From Chamaesiphon sp. 341R_metabat_111 (GTDB lineage: Bacteria > Cyanobacteriota > Cyanobacteriia > Cyanobacteriales > Chamaesiphonaceae), in NCBI GenBank assembly GCA_025351825.1, contig JANXVE010000129.1, positions 1 to 47,601 on the forward strand: 47,601 bases of DNA, given 5' to 3'. Shown in pieces: positions 22,515 to 47,601 of the stretch (its first letter is position 1; each line of letters begins with the position of its first letter). Made by a program: the position numbers and the translations under genes. The notes below the pieces were generated by a model. That model did no database searches and was not told the origin of the DNA. It worked only from the letters and a program-made list of their open reading frames with translations.

Positions 22515-22585
22515 GCGAGCGTAGTTTAGTGGTAAAACTACAGCCTTCCAAGCTGTTGTTGTGGGTTCGATTCCCACCGCTCGCT
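22515..22585 (+). tRNA. tRNA-Gly(UCC)
   Basis: 71 nt with a complete cloverleaf: acceptor GCGAGCG pairs with CGCTCGC; anticodon stem ACAGC/GCTGT with loop CTTCCAA, anticodon TCC; T-arm GTGGGTTCGATTCCCAC. CCA is not encoded. It is the attachment locus of the CAST: 16 nt (22549-22564, anticodon loop to T stem) equal the spacer of the element's homing guide, and the element starts 27 bp after the gene. The gene is left intact. Confidence 0.97.
22549..22564 (+). other. Protospacer of the CAST homing guide inside tRNA-Gly
   Basis: CAAGCTGTTGTTGTGG at 22549-22564 is identical to the sequence directly after the degenerate repeat (minus strand 22842-22827). The 5'-flanking triplet is TTC (22546-22548), not the GTN described for ShCAST. 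Sixty-three bases (22549-22611) separate the PAM edge from the transposon end. Confidence 0.9.
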
Positions 22586-22606: not shown

Positions 22607-22611
22607 TATCA
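22607..22611. other. Predicted 5-bp target-site duplication (TATCA)
   Basis: The five bases directly outside the TGTACA end. Tn7-like elements duplicate 5 bp. The partner copy should adjoin the tnsB-side end, which is beyond the window. Confidence 0.55.
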
Positions 22612-22695
22612 TGTACATTAACTAATTATTTGTCACTGTTAACACATTAGTGTCAATTTAACTAATTATTTGTCACTGTTAACTAATTAGTGTCA
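22612..22695. mobile_element. CAST terminal region, guide-side (right) end with TnsB-type repeats
   Basis: Begins with TGTACA (22612-22617), the terminus typical of V-K elements. Four TnsB-like sites ending in TGTCA follow: 22618-22635, 22641-22655, 22658-22675 and 22679-22695. Sites one and three sit in an exact 26-bp direct repeat (22618-22643 and 22658-22683, 40-bp period). The arrangement is like the published right ends of ShCAST-type elements. Confidence 0.88.
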
Positions 22696-22703
22696 TTATT
22701 CAC

Positions 22704-22796
22704 GTAAGCTGTCGAACATTTAAAACACTCTTTTTGTCCTCTACAACCCTTGTTATAAGGGATTCAGTCAAAATATTTGGATGACAGACAGCTTAC
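22704..22796. repeat. 10-bp inverted repeat inside the CAST right end
   Basis: GTAAGCTGTC at 22704-22713 and its exact complement at 22787-22796 enclose 73 bp that include a smaller hairpin CCCTT-GTTAT-AAGGG (22747-22761). It lies between the TnsB sites and the homing spacer; it could end the guide transcript, but no T-run is evident. Confidence 0.5.
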
Positions 22797-22826: not shown

Positions 22827-22880
22827 CCACAACAACAGCTTGCTTTCAACTATTCTTATTTTAACCATAGCAATCCTAAA
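22827..22880 (-). ncRNA. Delocalised homing guide: degenerate CRISPR repeat + 16-nt spacer
   Basis: On the minus strand a degenerate repeat ends AAGAATAGTTGAAAG (from about 22880 to 22843), sharing the GTTGAAAG end with the array repeats. The next 16 nt (22842-22827) equal the tRNA-Gly sequence 22549-22564, then identity stops. Separated short-spacer guides near the array that target tRNA genes are known for V-K CASTs and direct insertion into the attachment site. Its repeat pairs through ten Watson-Crick pairs (AAGAATAGTT) with the tracrRNA anti-repeat at 23339-23348. Confidence 0.9.
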
Positions 22881-22957
22881 TCAGTTGCGAATGATGGCTC
22901 TATTCTCAGAAAGGGTTTGAGCGACGTAAAACTCAGTAACTCAAATAGGATCTGTCA

Positions 22958-23138
22958 CTTTCAACCACTCCTTACGAAGAAGGATGGTTGCGACCTGGCA
23001 GCAGCAATTAACTTTGATAACGCCCGATCCTTTCAACCACTCCTTACGAAGAAGGATGGTTGCGACATCGCTATCTGCTCGATCGCGAACATTACTACCC
23101 CCTTTCAACCACTCCTTACGAAGAAGGATGGTTGCGAC
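22958..23138 (-). CRISPR. Type V-K CRISPR array, three 37-bp repeats and two 35-bp spacers
   Basis: Identical repeats at 22958-22994, 23030-23066 and 23102-23138; spacers 22995-23029 and 23067-23101. Read on the minus strand (same as cas12k) each repeat starts GTCGCAACCATCC and ends GGAGTGGTTGAAAG, the typical V-K repeat end. The repeat contains an internal CCTT...AAGG stem. Sequence after the last repeat (22957 downwards) may be a third, terminal spacer. The spacers have no match I can see within the window. Confidence 0.96.
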
Positions 23139-23336: not shown

Positions 23337-23563
23337 CAAAGAATAGTTTCCACAAATGTGGATGATTTGGTAGCTACTGAGCAGTAAACCTGCATCCGTA
23401 TTGCTGGGAGCGCACCTGATTCCTGTCTGAAAGAGACAGCAGCATCGAGACTTGCAGCTACCAGGGTCAGAAAGTAAAACAGTATCTCTACTGTCAAACA
23501 AACCCTCATTTAACACGTTGGAGCGGTTATTGCTAACATTCAACGCGGCGCGATTAATAATAC
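23337..23563 (-). ncRNA. tracrRNA of the type V-K system
   Basis: The minus strand downstream of cas12k carries, in order, blocks I recognise from ShCAST-type tracrRNA: TTAAT-CGCGCCGC, GTTAAATGAGGGTT, TTTGAC...ACTG, TTTCTGACCCTGGTAGCTGC, GATGCTGCTGTC, GACAGGA, GGTGCGCTCCCAGCAATA, TTTACTGCT..AGTAGCTACC and AAATCA, then a CCACATTTGTGG stem and an anti-repeat AACTATTCTTTG (23348-23337). The length of about 225 nt agrees with known examples. Ends are approximate. The anti-repeat pairs with both the array repeats (12 pairs, four G-U) and the homing repeat (10 pairs, none G-U). Confidence 0.92.
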
Positions 23564-23597
23564 TTACATTCTATTTTCTAGGTACAAAATTAGCAAG

Positions 23598-25460
23598 TTA
23601 AGAAACTGCTCTTTTGGCATATGCAGATAGGGCAATTTCCCTGGCTCGTTCGTTAGGACTTGCTCTGGCTGGCTGACTACCATACTCGATCGCAATTCCA
23701 GACTGTGCTGCTTTACTAATAATTGATTCGCTCAGACGATTGTAGCTCCAATTATGGAGGCTGATTCGTACTTGTTTGACATATTTTTTTTGCCCTTCCA
23801 GATAGTCAGGAATTTTTAGCTGTGCCATTGCATCTACTTCATTTTGGATACTCAAGCGAATTTGGTCTAGTTTTGGTAATGCAATACTATCAGCTTGGTA
23901 GATTTGAGCTAATTCGACGATCGATTTAGCAAATAATCGATCGAGATGTTCTCCCAATTCAGAATTAGAGAACTGCCTCGATAAACCTTGCTTTTGAGCT
24001 TTATGGCTTGAATGTCGTTGCTGGGTTTGAAGATTCCGTTGACGATTTACAAGTCGATAATTGTCGCCTAATAACTGTTTGGTATTGCGATAAGCGATGA
24101 TATCTCTAGTTGTTAGGTCGATCGCGATCGCAGTAACGGGAGATTTCAATCCCACACTCACTGCCACCATAATGTTGGACTGTCCCTGATATATAGGCTT
24201 ACTGGAACGGTTAAATGGTCGATCTAGTTTGTCTAGAGTAGATTGAAGGCGTTTAACATAGTTATCTTGAGTGTTGGTACGATCGACCTTTTCCTTCATT
24301 GCGACAAGCTTTTGAGTCGTACCTGCTGCCACTTCTCGCTTGACTAATTCTGTCCCCTCTGCGGTTAAGAGCCGAGTATCTAAGGTACAGGAAAGATACA
24401 ACTGATATACATTCCAAGGTTCTCCCTTATCTTTCCTTGGTGCCCATTGTAATTTAGCCGACCGCAGTAGAAAGAGGCTGCTGGTATGCTGTCTTTTACT
24501 GGCTAACATGGTTTGGTAGTCAGACAAGAATCGTTGGAAGTAATGTAGTTGTCTTTGACCACAACCAATCGTAAATTCATGTTCGCTAATACCGCCGATA
24601 TGCAGACCAATCTTGTCTTGTTGGGTACCAAGCCACATTAAGTCCATATTGCTTTCCAATACGATCGGAAATGGAACTAAATTTGGTCTTGCCAATAATT
24701 GGGACTGCCATCTTGAAGCTTCAGCATTATCGATCGGAACGTCTCTGGTTGCTAATTCTAAAGTAGTGAGGAATCTCTCTCCTGTGAGATCTCGTCCTTG
24801 CGGCAGACGGTTTTCGAGTTGTTGGGTTAGACGTTTTACTTGATTCTCAATCTTGCTCCGATATTTGAGGAATTTTTGGGGGTCTTTATCGGTCTCTGAA
24901 GGGATTTGACAGCGATTTCTCAGTAAATAGGCAATCGCACTCCGACTTAATAAATCTTCAGTTCGTTCATAAGCTTGGTACAAACTTTTGCGGAGATTTT
25001 TTTGGGATTCTACTGAATTATCAGCAGATTGGTAGCGCAGGAGCAGAGCTTGTGCTTTGCTTCTAATTTGGTCTAAACTTTGTCCACAATCAGCGATAGA
25101 TTCCTCGTCGGTACGCAGCATTCTCAGCCAGGAAATTTTGCCTTTTAATTGCCACTCAACGCGCTTTTGAATTGCCAGCCAGGATTTGAATGTGTAAAGT
25201 ACTGTTTTCTCTGCGGAGATATGAAATTTAGCTGGTTGGTTGCTGAATCGAGGATCTGTTTTGAGTGTCTTAGCTAATTTTGTGACTTCGGCAGTGGGAA
25301 GCTTGCCTTTGCTGCGCCAGGTGGAAAAGTCAGAATGGATAGCAACTAGACGCAATAATTCGTTTACCAGTGGGGTATTACGATCGCTCATCAACTCCCA
25401 GAGATATCGTCGGGCAGTTTCATCGGCAAATAGTCGGCACTGGACAGTGATTTGGCTCAT
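23598..25460 (-). CDS. cas12k: Cas12k, nuclease-inactive CRISPR effector of the V-K transposon
   Basis: 620 residues, close to the ~640 of ShCas12k. N-terminus ITVQCRLFADETARRYLWELMSDRNTPLVNELL, the segment NIMVAVSVGLKSPVTAIAIDLTTRDIIAYRN (degenerate RuvC-I region), RQRNLQTQQRHSSHKAQKQG, and the tail YGSQPARASPNERAREIALSAYAKR are family-typical. It binds the dual guide RNA, finds the target and recruits TniQ/TnsC without cutting DNA. tracrRNA and CRISPR array lie downstream on the same strand; the divergent regulator gene starts 68 bp upstream. Confidence 0.97.
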   Translation of the reverse strand: MSQITVQCRLFADETARRYLWELMSDRNTPLVNELLRLVAIHSDFSTWRSKGKLPTAEVTKLAKTLKTDPRFSNQPAKFHISAEKTVLYTFKSWLAIQKRVEWQLKGKISWLRMLRTDEESIADCGQSLDQIRSKAQALLLRYQSADNSVESQKNLRKSLYQAYERTEDLLSRSAIAYLLRNRCQIPSETDKDPQKFLKYRSKIENQVKRLTQQLENRLPQGRDLTGERFLTTLELATRDVPIDNAEASRWQSQLLARPNLVPFPIVLESNMDLMWLGTQQDKIGLHIGGISEHEFTIGCGQRQLHYFQRFLSDYQTMLASKRQHTSSLFLLRSAKLQWAPRKDKGEPWNVYQLYLSCTLDTRLLTAEGTELVKREVAAGTTQKLVAMKEKVDRTNTQDNYVKRLQSTLDKLDRPFNRSSKPIYQGQSNIMVAVSVGLKSPVTAIAIDLTTRDIIAYRNTKQLLGDNYRLVNRQRNLQTQQRHSSHKAQKQGLSRQFSNSELGEHLDRLFAKSIVELAQIYQADSIALPKLDQIRLSIQNEVDAMAQLKIPDYLEGQKKYVKQVRISLHNWSYNRLSESIISKAAQSGIAIEYGSQPARASPNERAREIALSAYAKRAVS

Positions 25461-25528
25461 AAAGATACTAAGACAACATTTGTTGATGACATATTTGTTT
25501 GGTAGCTGGCTGGGGTACGATCGATACT
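25461..25528. promoter_or_regulatory. Divergent cas12k / CvkR-like promoter region with inverted repeat
   Basis: 68 bp between the two start codons. It contains the palindrome CAACA-TT-TGTTG (25474-25485) 13 bp before the cas12k start. CvkR-type repressors bind a short palindrome at the cas12k promoter, so this is the best operator candidate; the assignment is inference. Confidence 0.5.
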
Positions 25529-25990
25529 ATGCAGGAGCCATTTTTTACTAGTAAGCAAGCAGCAAACATATCGGGCTGCACCTTGCGTCAATTGCAATAT
25601 TGGCGGGAGAAAGAAATTGTTGTGCCCACAGTCAGTTCTCAGGGAACGGGACGGAGCATTTACTACAGTCCGGCGGAGGTTGTAGAACTGGGGATTATGG
25701 AATATTGTCTGGGATCGGGATTAAACATGGAAATCGCCGCTGCTGCTCTCAAATCATTAAAGGACAAGTCCCCCAATCTGATTCAGGCAGTATCCCAGCC
25801 ATGGTTGTTGTCTTGGAATGGACAAAAGAAAACACTGGATGTGGTCGATTTTGATGAAATACAGGCGATAGAGTGGTTGAAAGCAGGTAGAGTCATGATT
25901 CTGCTGCGGTTTGAAGAGGTAGCTTTTCTTCGATCGGTCAAAGATGCGCTAGCTATTTATCATTCGAGACATCGATCGAATCTCGGTTGA
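25529..25990 (+). CDS. cvkR: MerR-type transcriptional regulator, CvkR-like repressor of the CAST
   Basis: 153 residues from ATG 25529 (the frame is open to TTG 25499, but that would cover most of the promoter region). N-terminal MerR winged helix: FFTSKQAANISGCTLRQLQYWREKEIVVP. The rest is a short effector-like domain, not a Cys metal-binding one. CvkR proteins, described from Anabaena (Alr3614), are encoded divergently beside cas12k and repress cas12k and tracrRNA. Position, orientation and family all match. Confidence 0.85.
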   Translation: MQEPFFTSKQAANISGCTLRQLQYWREKEIVVPTVSSQGTGRSIYYSPAEVVELGIMEYCLGSGLNMEIAAAALKSLKDKSPNLIQAVSQPWLLSWNGQKKTLDVVDFDEIQAIEWLKAGRVMILLRFEEVAFLRSVKDALAIYHSRHRSNLG

Positions 25991-26117: not shown

Positions 26118-27896
26118 TCAATTGGCTCGGTTTACACTCGATAAATTTTTGCCCATCACTCGATCGATCGAGTGAGATAGATTCCCAAAGCGAGACTCTA
26201 AAAAAGCCTCAAAATCGTCATTCCACAAGGTCAGAGGTTCGATTGAATGCGATCTCAAAATCTCATCTAGCCGCGATCTAGAAATACCATGCTGTTCTAC
26301 CAACCGAGCCAAATACACCGATGGCGATTGAGATCCGATAAACCGATTCGTATCTTTTCGCAGTGGAGTTCGATTGAGCAGACAATTATATCGAGCCGAT
26401 GGAATTCCTTGCTGCTTGCACCAAGCCTCTGGAAATACATGATGGGACTCAATCTCCCCATCGAATGCTTTCACGTCTCGCAGTATCTCTCCAGAGACAA
26501 AATCAATCGCCCCCTGCTTGCGGAGTAGTGCATTCAAAGTCTTATAAATGGCTCCCTGTCGTCTGGTGGTATTGAACAATTTTTCCCGATTGAAGCCTAC
26601 AGTATCGAGATTACTCGGTATTTTCCCACCAGCTAGCCACTCAGGAAGCTCGATCGTATCGTTAGCTGTCCGCTTATTTTGCCAATTATTATAAATCTCG
26701 CCAAACGAACACGACCACCACCAGTGTTCTAATTGAGTACGTCCCAGATCGTTAGGTAATCCAATAATTGCCAGTGCTGATGCCAAAGCTAGTAACTGAC
26801 TAGAATAGGCAATATCTTCAGGATGGACGAATCCTAAACTATGCAAGAATTTAGCCGCTTGCTCAAAACCTGCCAGTGTCATCGGTGCAAATTGTCGGTA
26901 ATCCGCTAATTCCAGATCGAGGATATTACGACGACCGCAGCCGATACTTGGTAGATGATTGGCTCTAGGATTTTCCTTCAACACCTGCTCTCGACAGTGA
27001 TGAGTTGCGACCAGAGTTACTGCTGATAGCCAATCGGTATTTCGCACACCTTGAAGGACTCCAAATCTTGATAACTGCTGACTGATATCTGCAAAATGAT
27101 CTCGGAGAGAGAAGTCTTCTGCGGCGAAACAGGCGGTTACAAGGTCGAAGAAGGTCATCGGTGTAGGCATTTCATGCATATCTTCAAAGATCTGACAAAC
27201 GGCTACTTTAGACAGTTCTGGGCGCAATTGAATAATTGGCAGTTGATAATGCTCGAATCTTTTGACAATTTCTAATTCAAACTGTCGGGCGAGAGCTAAT
27301 TTCTCTGGATCGTAGTTCCAGTATTTCTGAAATCCGTCACGCCATTGGGCATAGTTAAAGATGGCAGAGACGGGAAATAATAATTGCTCGTACTCTTTTT
27401 CGCTGGTAGTACAGTCAATCTTCCGGTGTTGAGTTTTTTTGGTTTGCGATCGAGGTAATGAAATAATCGCATCTACTCGCTCGACCGCTGGATTGAGTGC
27501 GGCAGGGATATCGATGTAATACCATCGCTCTTGAACTCGATGGGTTTGACGGTCGCGAATACTAACTGCGACACCAGAGCGCAAGCACATGAACATACTG
27601 GTTAACCGCTGTTGTCCATCCAAAATCAGACTTTCAGGGATGGGTTCCTCTTTGAGTCGAACACCTTCAAGCAGTCGTGGCTTGAAAGTAAAACTGCTAC
27701 TGCTATTGACTTTAATCGTTAGGATTGCACCAATTGGGAAAGATTGAGAGATGCTGGCAATCAGTTTGACGATTTGTTCGTTGCACCAAGTGAAACTACG
27801 CTGAAGATCGGGTAATTGAACTTTGCCTGTGTGGATCTCTTCGAGCAAGTCGCCGAGAGATTCTTTAGTGTTGTCGAACATTCCGATCGAGTTCAT
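26118..27896 (-). CDS. DUF262-HNH protein, GmrSD-like type IV restriction nuclease
   Basis: 592 residues from ATG 27896 (an upstream ATG 27941 would add 15). N-terminal DUF262/GmrS domain with LQRSFTWCNEQIVKLIASI and ILDGQQRLTS (DGQQR 93-97, the nucleotide-binding/catalytic motif). The C-terminus has ESHHVFPEAWC (His485, His486) and YNCLLNRTPL, an HNH (DUF1524/GmrD-like) nuclease motif. Single-chain DUF262+HNH proteins cut modified phage DNA or otherwise defend against phage. First cargo gene beyond the regulator, on the opposite strand. Modification specificity is unknown. Confidence 0.85.
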   Translation of the reverse strand: MNSIGMFDNTKESLGDLLEEIHTGKVQLPDLQRSFTWCNEQIVKLIASISQSFPIGAILTIKVNSSSSFTFKPRLLEGVRLKEEPIPESLILDGQQRLTSMFMCLRSGVAVSIRDRQTHRVQERWYYIDIPAALNPAVERVDAIISLPRSQTKKTQHRKIDCTTSEKEYEQLLFPVSAIFNYAQWRDGFQKYWNYDPEKLALARQFELEIVKRFEHYQLPIIQLRPELSKVAVCQIFEDMHEMPTPMTFFDLVTACFAAEDFSLRDHFADISQQLSRFGVLQGVRNTDWLSAVTLVATHHCREQVLKENPRANHLPSIGCGRRNILDLELADYRQFAPMTLAGFEQAAKFLHSLGFVHPEDIAYSSQLLALASALAIIGLPNDLGRTQLEHWWWSCSFGEIYNNWQNKRTANDTIELPEWLAGGKIPSNLDTVGFNREKLFNTTRRQGAIYKTLNALLRKQGAIDFVSGEILRDVKAFDGEIESHHVFPEAWCKQQGIPSARYNCLLNRTPLRKDTNRFIGSQSPSVYLARLVEQHGISRSRLDEILRSHSIEPLTLWNDDFEAFLESRFGNLSHSIDRVMGKNLSSVNRAN

Positions 27897-28161
27897 AGAT
27901 CTCTTTGAATCTTTTTTCCCTGTAGTGGCGATAATGGGCATTTACCAAATTAGATGAGATGGTAATCGGAGTTTCCCGTTCGATATACAAACGATACCAG
28001 CAGCTAGATTTTGCTGGTATTGCTGTGTTTTGGGCATTGCCTTTGTCTTCTGAGACTTTTAACAGTGCGGGTGATTGACGTTTGCTATTGCGGTTCTTCC
28101 TGGCAGTCGATTCGCGGAGCTGGTTTTCAATCATCTTAATTGTGTTAGCTGAAACTGTCAA
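27865..28161 (-). CDS. Small basic hypothetical protein upstream of the DUF262 gene
   Basis: 98 residues, basic, overlapping the DUF262 gene start by 32 bp. Residues 1-30 are a Lys/Arg/Asn-rich helix; the tail is Tyr- and basic-rich. No family recognised. The N-terminal coding part (28075-28127) is duplicated upstream at 28273-28325, so this could be a shortened or decaying gene. It could be a helper of the nuclease or not expressed. Confidence 0.4.
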   Translation of the reverse strand: MTVSANTIKMIENQLRESTARKNRNSKRQSPALLKVSEDKGNAQNTAIPAKSSCWYRLYIERETPITISSNLVNAHYRHYREKRFKEIYELDRNVRQH

Positions 28162-45839: not shown

Positions 45840-46361
45840 TTATATTTCTCGATCTGTACATTTCTGCAAGTTCTTCATCTCACCAAAGGTTGTAAAACAC
45901 CGCTGACACCAACCATCAACCCACAAAGCCGGAACTTTAAACCGTGCCCCACACTTAGGACATTCCGATAACAACCTCAATTGATGCTGATGACATCGAT
46001 CTACACTCTTCAACTGCCACTCAATCCGATGATAGGGCGATTCGCCATAACAAGCCCCGCACAAACGAATCGGCTCCATCTTCATCCCCATCCCCACTGG
46101 TGGCAACATCTCCATCAACCTCTCCACATCCACACCCACAACTCCAGCGAAAGCTGCCAATTGGCTCGGAGATGGTGGCGGATTAAACCGAAACTTTTCC
46201 CATCGCGAAATTATTGCACCACCAAATCCCGCCGCCTTAGCTAATCTCCCTGGAGTCAAGTCATTCGCTCGACGAAACCGACCCAAAAAATGACTCAAAC
46301 TCTCTCCAGACAAAGGTTCGACCTGAAACAACCAAGCTTGAATCTCCTCAATTTCTATCAT
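45840..46361 (-). CDS. tniQ: TniQ, target-selection protein of the CAST
   Basis: 173 residues, the size typical of V-K TniQ (ShTniQ is about 167). N-terminal TniQ segment VEPLSGESLSHFLGRFRRAND and helix-turn-helix-like part, then two zinc-binding clusters: C101-x2-C104 with C123/H126, and C134-x2-C137 with C152-x2-C155. TniQ bridges the Cas12k-guide complex and TnsC. Its start overlaps the tnsC end by 4 bp, so the three transposition genes are one operon. Confidence 0.94.
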   Translation of the reverse strand: MIEIEEIQAWLFQVEPLSGESLSHFLGRFRRANDLTPGRLAKAAGFGGAIISRWEKFRFNPPPSPSQLAAFAGVVGVDVERLMEMLPPVGMGMKMEPIRLCGACYGESPYHRIEWQLKSVDRCHQHQLRLLSECPKCGARFKVPALWVDGWCQRCFTTFGEMKNLQKCTDREI

Positions 46362-47209
46362 TTATATTCCTCTGCAACTTCCTTCAAAGTCTGCAAATCG
46401 ATCTTCGCCAAACCCTTCTTGAGCGATCGAATTGCCGCCTCCCGCAGAATCATATCCATCAACCCGATATAACCGCCAGTAGCTTCTCCCAGAGTCTTGA
46501 TTATCGTCTTCCCCGTCAGATTTGAAGGAGTCGGCAACCGCAACACCTGCTGCTCCCAGATCTTCACAGTCCGCTCAAAATCCTCCCCCGACAACTTTCC
46601 AAACCGATAACAAGCGCGAAACCGATTGTAAACTTGCTCATCGCGCTTAATTACAGCATCTAATCGATCGGTACCTACAAGAATCACCGAAATCTGCAAA
46701 TTATCAAAAATATCCCGTACCTCTGCAAAAGTTTTTGGTTTAAATCGATCGGCTTCATCGATAATCAGCATCTCCACCTGACATCCCTTCATTACCCGCA
46801 GCGTTCGATCGCGCATTTCTGCAATCGTCCCTTTTGTCACTTGATACTTCAAATGACCTAAAATCACACCAAATAACTCCTTTGCACCACATTCCTGTGG
46901 TATTTGAATGTAAATCACGGGTACAGTCGGCGGTTTTCCTGCTACCTGTTGAGGTTTATTCCTCAACCGATACGCATCACACGCCATCGTCTTGCCCGTT
47001 CTAGATTCTCCTACCACTCGACCCGATTGACGAGACTGTCGCTTACCTTCCAGCCAGTCATGAGCGATTTGTACCTGATGGAGAGGGATAAAACCTTTCC
47101 GATTCAATCGTTCGATTGCCGCCTGAACTTCAGCCGTCATCACAGGAAGATTTCCTAGTTGCTGGGCAACAGTTGTTGCAGTTGGATCGATCGTACTTTT
47201 AGAATCCAT
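46358..47209 (-). CDS. tnsC: TnsC, AAA+ regulator of transposition
   Basis: 283 residues from ATG 47209 (the frame is open to 47236, but that would overlap tnsB by 38 bp instead of 11). AAA+ core with Walker A GESRTGKT (67-74) and Walker B MLIIDEAD (D151, E152). V-K TnsC forms ATP-dependent filaments on DNA that link the Cas12k target complex to TnsB. The length fits ShTnsC. Part of tnsB-tnsC-tniQ. Confidence 0.95.
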   Translation of the reverse strand: MDSKSTIDPTATTVAQQLGNLPVMTAEVQAAIERLNRKGFIPLHQVQIAHDWLEGKRQSRQSGRVVGESRTGKTMACDAYRLRNKPQQVAGKPPTVPVIYIQIPQECGAKELFGVILGHLKYQVTKGTIAEMRDRTLRVMKGCQVEMLIIDEADRFKPKTFAEVRDIFDNLQISVILVGTDRLDAVIKRDEQVYNRFRACYRFGKLSGEDFERTVKIWEQQVLRLPTPSNLTGKTIIKTLGEATGGYIGLMDMILREAAIRSLKKGLAKIDLQTLKEVAEEYK

Positions 47210-47601
47210 AATCTTGATGCATTTCCTCGTAATCAACTAGTGCGGGCATTTCCCAATCTGTCTCTGTCTTGGTTATTTCTATATCTGTTTCAGCTTCCAC
47301 TTGTGTCACCGATACAGATACCTGAACTTGCTTAACTTGTGCCTGTTCTGCCTTCTTGCGTTCTTTCTGGGTTGGCTTCCGATTTACAAAGATGTCTCGA
47401 TCTCGTACTTCCGCTAGGATCGATCGATTAGTAACGTCTTTCCCTTTCTCCCGCACCTTTCGACTCATCGCCTTCGCCTCATCTAGAGACAGTTCTTCCG
47501 TCTCTAAATCTTGAGCATGAGCGCGGGCTAAAAATACTTCATTCTCTCCCTCACGACGATAAATGAGGATTGTCGTAATATCTCTGGGATCGAATCGAAC
47601 A
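47199..47601 (-). CDS. tnsB: TnsB transposase, C-terminal 133 codons (5' end outside window)
   Basis: The frame is open from the window edge to the stop at 47199. The segment VRFDPRDITTILIYRREGEN, then VFLARAHAQDLETEELSLDEAKAMSRKVREKGK, matches the Mu-type beta-barrel end of V-K TnsB; the last ~40 residues are a variable linker and the TnsC-binding tail. TnsB is the DDE transposase that binds the end repeats and joins them to target DNA. The catalytic domain is outside the window, so its integrity cannot be judged. Confidence 0.93.
   Translation of the reverse strand, partial: VRFDPRDITTILIYRREGENEVFLARAHAQDLETEELSLDEAKAMSRKVREKGKDVTNRSILAEVRDRDIFVNRKPTQKERKKAEQAQVKQVQVSVSVTQVEAETDIEITKTETDWEMPALVDYEEMHQDYGF

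Follow-up and report, generated by a model that had tools for sequence, protein, structure and literature searches.

Organization of the locus

The window, 47,601 nt long, is an entire contig (C125) of Chamaesiphon sp. 341R_metabat_111. Reading inward from a tRNA gene, it contains: the left end of a transposon; an anchor unit made of a truncated repeat (R*) and a short spacer; a CRISPR array; a tracrRNA region; the genes for Cas12k and a MerR-type regulator; about 20 kb of cargo; and the genes for TniQ, TnsC and the C-terminal part of TnsB (Table 1). The published scheme for type V-K CASTs has the same order, from tRNA and left end through R* with its spacer, array, tracrRNA and cas12k to the regulator (PMC9938897, partial text). 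Cas12k is identified by the NCBIfam V_Cas12k model (765 bits; cut-off 150) and by solved Cas12k chains (E 1e-193 or better). The small DNA-binding regulator of CvkR or Arc type that marks V-K elements, divergent from cas12k, is represented here by the MerR_1 match.

The Cas12k, TniQ and TnsC reading frames are open. tnsB is split by contig ends: its C-terminal part lies on the window and its N-terminal part, corresponding to residues 3-110 of the TnsB on contig C190, lies on contig C131, while the middle, about 300 residues, is on no contig of the assembly. One possibility is that an unassembled repeat inserted in tnsB lies behind this split, at window end 47601 and the start of C131. The anchor unit lies between two short relics of mobile repeats, with similar stretches on contigs C187 and C32 of the same genome.

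Several cargo proteins between 32536 and 45796 match models named as anti-phage: DUF499 (850 bits, below the cut-off of 1200), DUF1156 (1421 bits; cut-off 1000) and a phospholipase D-like helicase (1322 bits; cut-off 1100), followed by an ATPase and an S8 peptidase that resemble IteA/IteS, both below cut-off. A GmrSD_N protein is encoded at 26118-27941. The targets of the array spacers would show the PAM directly; neither of the two spacers has a plasmid match, and their first 21 nt have no exact match in viral contigs.

Table 1. Features of the element and its insertion site in the window
Feature	Position	Strand	Basis or remark
tRNA-Gly(UCC), probable attachment site, pointing towards the element	22515-22585	+	
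TTC at the PAM site, counted as T33-T34-C35 of the tRNA	22546-22548	+	GTN expected
Protospacer, 16 nt	22549-22564	+	match to anchor spacer
Target-site duplication TATCA, 5 bp, left copy	22607-22611	+	right copy on C131 (L084 688-692)
Left end: TGTACA and two 38-nt repeats (presumed TnsB sites)	22612-22695	+	22611-22654 matches the right end on C131 at 89%
MITE-like inverted repeat	22704-22796		second copy on C187, another contig of the same genome (82%)
Anchor (putative homing) spacer CAAGCTGTTGTTGTGG	22827-22842	-	sequence match, shuffles
Truncated repeat R*, ending AAGAATAGTT then GAAAG	22843-22865	-	5' limit set by neighbouring repeat
Mobile-repeat relic between R* and array	22866-22952		86% like C32 1641-1727
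CRISPR array	22958-23138	-	37-nt repeats 22958-22994, 23030-23066, 23102-23138; 35-nt spacers 22995-23029, 23067-23101
tracrRNA anti-repeat AACTATTCTT, exact complement of R* block AAGAATAGTT	23339-23348	-	just after a hairpin
tracrRNA region	23339-23597 (5' bound not fixed)	-	position between cas12k and array as in PMC9938897 (partial text); sequence
Cas12k (620 aa), with Lys aligned to Arg78 of ShCas12k	23598-25460	-	V_Cas12k match
MerR-type regulator, divergent from cas12k, positioned and oriented like cvkR	25499-25990	+	MerR_1, 45.8 bits
TniQ	45840-46361	-	TniQ model match
TnsC (TniB/AAA)	46358-47236	-	TniB/TnsC model match
TnsB, C-terminal part	47202-47600	-	matches residues 428-560 of C190 TnsB

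The anchor spacer and its match to tRNA-Gly(UCC)

The spacer, read on the minus strand from 22842 to 22827, is identical at all 16 positions to the plus strand of the tRNA; at the next base the tRNA has G and the spacer T, so identity ends. The spacer begins directly after AAGAATAGTTGAAAG, whose final seven bases, TTGAAAG, are also the 3' end of all three array repeats. Across the 24,990 nt of the element within the window, 16 nt is the longest exact match to the tRNA, compared with 9-13 nt in 60 dinucleotide-preserving shuffles. The analytic chance that one fixed 16-mer matches any tRNA 16-mer, on either strand, is 2.6e-8. An earlier note on this DNA, made from the letters alone, had reported a 16-nt spacer beside a degenerate repeat, identical to this stretch of tRNA-Gly and losing identity immediately afterwards, and both observations are confirmed. 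The arrangement is that of a V-K anchor: a truncated repeat with a short spacer, between left end and array and on the strand of the array.

Of 60 relatives, 6 carry the 25-nt stretch that spans the protospacer, and every one of these belongs to the family of the host (6 of 11 inside the family, 0 of 49 outside). Since the exact target stretch is confined to this family among the relatives compared, the spacer fits the local tRNA allele. The same-genus genomes G388 and G391 carry CAAGCTATTGATGTGG in its place. TTGAAAG joined to the spacer pattern of the window was found in 1 of 388 genomes of the order, the host itself.

The insertion site

The 89% match to the left end led to C131, a contig of the same genome that starts inside tnsB and continues through the element end TGTACA into TATCA. 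The element is therefore bounded by TGTACA at both ends and by TATCA on both sides, the TGT...ACA termini and 5-bp duplication of a V-K insertion. When the two flanks are joined, they align with the tRNA-Gly loci of two same-genus genomes that represent empty sites: without gaps over 366 columns in G392 (81%), and with two gaps over 245 columns in G393 (87%). The other seven of the nine loci compared align more weakly (109-146 bits), and two inspected alignments stop at or just after the tRNA. Together, the tRNA facing the left end, the duplication at both ends and the empty sites bear out the earlier proposal that tRNA-Gly is the attachment locus of the element itself.

The end of TTC lies 63 nt from the left end. 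This is within the PAM-to-left-end range of 46-82 nt of published anchors (PMC9938897, partial text). The insertion distance of ShCAST is 61-66 (PMC9876797, partial text), and the commonest distance of Anabaena insertions is exactly 63, seen in 4 of 6 (PMC10949235, partial text). In the comparison set described below, TGTACA is within reach of 39 of 61 anchors, at 36-74 nt and most often at 62.

Anchors in other V-K loci

Anchor spacers with a truncated R* are a published kind in cyanobacterial V-K CASTs (Ziemann et al. 2023, PMC9938897, partial text). As far as that text goes, the unit in the window is like these anchors in its place by the left end, its strand, its truncated repeat, a protospacer in a tRNA just outside the element, and a distance within 46-82 nt. 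It is unlike them in having TTC where they have a conserved GTN, and its spacer is 16 nt long where 17 nt is usual. The delocalised crRNA of ShCAST matches tRNA-Leu by 17 bp (Saito et al. 2021, via the partial texts of PMC10949235 and PMC11656645). Homing by a short crRNA from outside the array to a tRNA beside the element would be common to ShCAST, as described in those sources, and the window; the window differs in its target, tRNA-Gly(UCC) from the anticodon loop to the T arm, and in its TTC.

For comparison, 84 loci including the window were picked for long Cas12k matches, together with three same-genus fragments, from 1,254 genome look-ups in overlapping draws. Anchors were sought as TGA[AG]AG followed by a stretch that matches inversely further out, either over at least 14 exact nt or, inside a tRNA, over 17 nt with no more than 2 mismatches. 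The PAM played no part in this search. Anchors were found in 61 of the 84 loci (23 were without), 59 of them in a tRNA. The 61 anchors represent 47 distinct spacers, and some loci are near-copies.

Other anchors to tRNA-Gly occur in L034 and L125 (both CCC) and in L115. The latter, from the same-genus genome G391, is a V-K element beside tRNA-Gly(UCC) with a different anchor to that tRNA, whose PAM is a GTA in the D-loop. In this region of the contig (G391:C609, about 2340-2560) there is also a second repeat-like unit followed by GAACGTCAGCTTCCCAA, which may be the remains of an earlier anchor with tRNA-Gly(CCC) as its target. The genome of the window itself contains a second V-K CAST (L051, on C190), anchored to tRNA-Pro(GGG) with PAM GTA. 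L051 and L115 share the anchor architecture of the window, and L115 also its tRNA; unlike the window, both have GTA in the D-loop as PAM, and their Cas12k proteins are about 40% identical to that of the window (L051, 41%).

On G448:C1, a single V-K element is present twice (L166 and L167), and both copies have the same anchor, which matches tRNA-Thr(GGU). L167, the second copy, adjoins tRNA-Gly(UCC) without any anchor match to that tRNA-Gly; a resident anchor therefore does not account for every V-K insertion next to a tRNA. The expectation of related V-K elements beside tRNA-Gly with the same spacer thus has a mixed outcome that does not refute the guide: such neighbours exist in L115 and L167, and both are without the spacer. 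The novelty that the earlier note attached to a homing guide for tRNA-Gly was overstated, given the published short tRNA anchors (PMC9938897, partial text) and the tRNA-Gly anchors of L034, L115 and L125.

The PAM position and Cas12k

Published V-K anchors have a conserved GTN PAM (PMC9938897, partial text); the window has TTC, a feature absent from the earlier note. Across the 61 anchors, the PAM is GTN in 59, TTC in the window and GCG in L068, so that 59 of the 60 other anchors have GTN. In L068, the spacer is 3 nt out of register, with a GTA inside it, and the Cas12k gene is in pieces. A comparable shift of register was considered as the cause of TTC in the window and rejected: there is no GTN just beside the site, the nearest one upstream is the GTA of the D-loop, and no D-loop spacer is left.

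Arg78 of ShCas12k, which we take to be a PAM-contacting residue, is replaced by Lys (codon AAA) in the window only. Among the 84 rows, its place holds Arg in 78, Asn in L060 and Thr in L068, and is unread in 3. All 55 anchors from rows with Arg78 have GTN. L060 (G145:C1), on a long branch, combines Asn with PAM GTG, so a changed residue at this place does not force a changed PAM. Thr287 and Arg421 have been named for the PAM fit of Cas12k (PMC10949235, partial text); the window has Ser and Arg at these places, and Ser is frequent among GTN rows.

The window Cas12k is divergent. Among the matches listed, its identity to other Cas12k proteins is around 50% at best, and none exceeds 51% (386 phylum-draw, 9 genus and 388 order-draw genomes, and 2 + 6 genomes of two further families, in overlapping sets). 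Further matches are one 43% fragment in a scan of genome contigs and two on plasmids, 32% and 50% identical, the latter over 31% of the query. In a quick tree, which gives no firm placement within the 46-row set, its branch is among the longest (1.04).

These observations suggest that the window Cas12k may tolerate or prefer TTC, with T kept at -2 and G replaced at -3. R* ends in AAG, and therefore even an NTN PAM would not be expected to aim the guide at its own gene. The feature is best described as a variant of the known anchor guide: it is anchor-like, departs from the others at the PAM position, and is accompanied by a correspondingly unusual Cas12k. It is called a variant because one defining feature of anchors, GTN, was tested for and TTC was found.

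Complementarity between R* and the tracrRNA

The ten R* bases before GAAAG form an exact 10-bp Watson-Crick complement to the anti-repeat in the tracrRNA of the element. None of the 59 other R* with a different block has more than 6 complementary nt at the tracrRNA of the window. By direct reading, the array repeat of the window forms 4 Watson-Crick pairs at the anti-repeat, or ten pairs if three G-U are allowed.

This pattern extends to other V-K elements. With anti-repeats located by means of R*, 41 of the 50 loci with both kinds of repeat have a longer Watson-Crick run for R* than for the array repeat, 8 have runs of equal length and 1 has a shorter one; a looser count over 51 loci gives 42, 6 and 3. 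Among 30 distinct R*, the run is longer in 24, equal in 5 and shorter in 1 (sign test, p 1.5e-6). There are exceptions: L115 reaches a run of no more than 5, and the resident R* fails to exceed the average of the other R* in 9 of 60 loci. R* and the anti-repeat look as if they change together.

Tighter binding of R* than of array repeats to the tracrRNA was considered and rejected, as predicted duplex energies do not favor it. In the window, the array repeat is about as good as R* or better (-8.8 vs -8.5 or -8.3 kcal/mol for the 10-bp block, and -9.6 vs -11.2 for 12-nt blocks at the anti-repeat site). The best energies over 50 loci favor R* by more than 0.5 in 17, lie within 0.5 in 5 and are weaker for R* in 28; the best-energy sites of R* and array repeat are mostly in different places, with only 12 of 50 within 5 nt. 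Because the energies give no tighter binding, the fit is used here as support that R* is real, and not as a mechanism.

Neither a non-GTN anchor nor this fit between R* and tracrRNA was met in the partial texts of PMC9938897, PMC11406308, PMC9876797, PMC10949235, PMC11127173 and PMC11656645, a set that leaves Saito 2021 and the Cas12k structure papers outside; this is no claim that either is unpublished.

Interpretation and alternatives

Taken together, the exact match after a truncated repeat, the TATCA duplication, the empty sites and the 63-nt distance argue for a homing guide. Very probably, the 16 matching nt are the spacer of a delocalised homing crRNA (an anchor) in a type V-K CAST that has tRNA-Gly(UCC) as its attachment site; the homing guide proposed in the earlier note is thus supported. 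We infer transcription of the anchor unit, loading of Cas12k and transposition by the anchor guide. R* and the spacer would be transcribed on the minus strand, and R* would pair with the tracrRNA of the element. With this short guide, Cas12k would then bind tRNA-Gly(UCC) over the stretch between the 3' side of the anticodon loop and the beginning of the T arm. Finally, TniQ, TnsC and TnsB would place the element, left end first, about 63 bp downstream and beyond the tRNA. Four observations count against this explanation: TTC rather than GTN; a tnsB not seen intact; an array repeat whose predicted pairing equals or exceeds that of R*; and L167.

That the spacer is a chance match or functionless tRNA-derived debris is hardly credible. 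Pieces of tRNA are common at integration sites, which would favor debris, but the match is 16 nt long against 9-13 nt in the 60 shuffles, has the right place, strand and register, and belongs to an arrangement found in 60 other loci. A dead element, with the spacer and Lys78 as products of decay, is improbable and deserves more weight than debris. The long Cas12k branch (from the quick tree only), a tnsB not seen whole and the two mobile repeats around the anchor unit speak for decay; the open Cas12k, TniQ and TnsC frames, the identity of spacer and host tRNA over 16 nt, the exact complementarity of R* and tracrRNA and the identical copies of the target-site duplication speak against it. Death after insertion would, in any case, be compatible with the guide reading.

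The element could also have arrived by another guide, for example one to the D-loop GTA of the same tRNA, or by none, with the present anchor copied later and non-working without a PAM. This is unlikely, slightly more so than decay. The TTC would be accounted for, the GTA of the tRNA (22532-22534) is the one used by the anchor of same-genus L115, and L167 is a copy at tRNA-Gly without an anchor to it. Against this route, the D-loop spacer AAACTACAGCCTTCCAA, sought with as many as 3 mismatches, has no match in the window outside the tRNA, and the present spacer follows TTGAAAG in exact register behind an R* that is still an exact complement of the tracrRNA. The D-loop GTA lies 77 nt from the left end, compared with 63 nt for the present guide, although 77 is inside the published range of 46-82 (PMC9938897, partial text).

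Implications

Within the homing-guide reading, a more specific proposal can be made tentatively, as one that may well prove wrong: a natural shift of PAM in a CAST. A fast-evolving Cas12k, with Lys for the near-invariant Arg78, would home at TTC (or an NTN-like PAM), which would have opened to the element a GTN-free site on the anticodon-loop side of tRNA-Gly(UCC). The anti-repeat would have changed together with R*, as one case of a broader tendency of V-K anti-repeats to be exactly complementary to R* and not to array repeats.

Although the predicted energies give no sign of tighter binding by homing guides, the fit of the anti-repeat to its own R*, by longer exact complementarity in 41 of 50 elements, offers a testable idea for how homing guides may be told from array guides. 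V-K CASTs are being explored as tools for DNA insertion and depend on GTN. If the proposal is true, the PAM determinants of Cas12k could readily be tested on a natural protein that homes at TTC and differs at one near-invariant residue on the PAM side.
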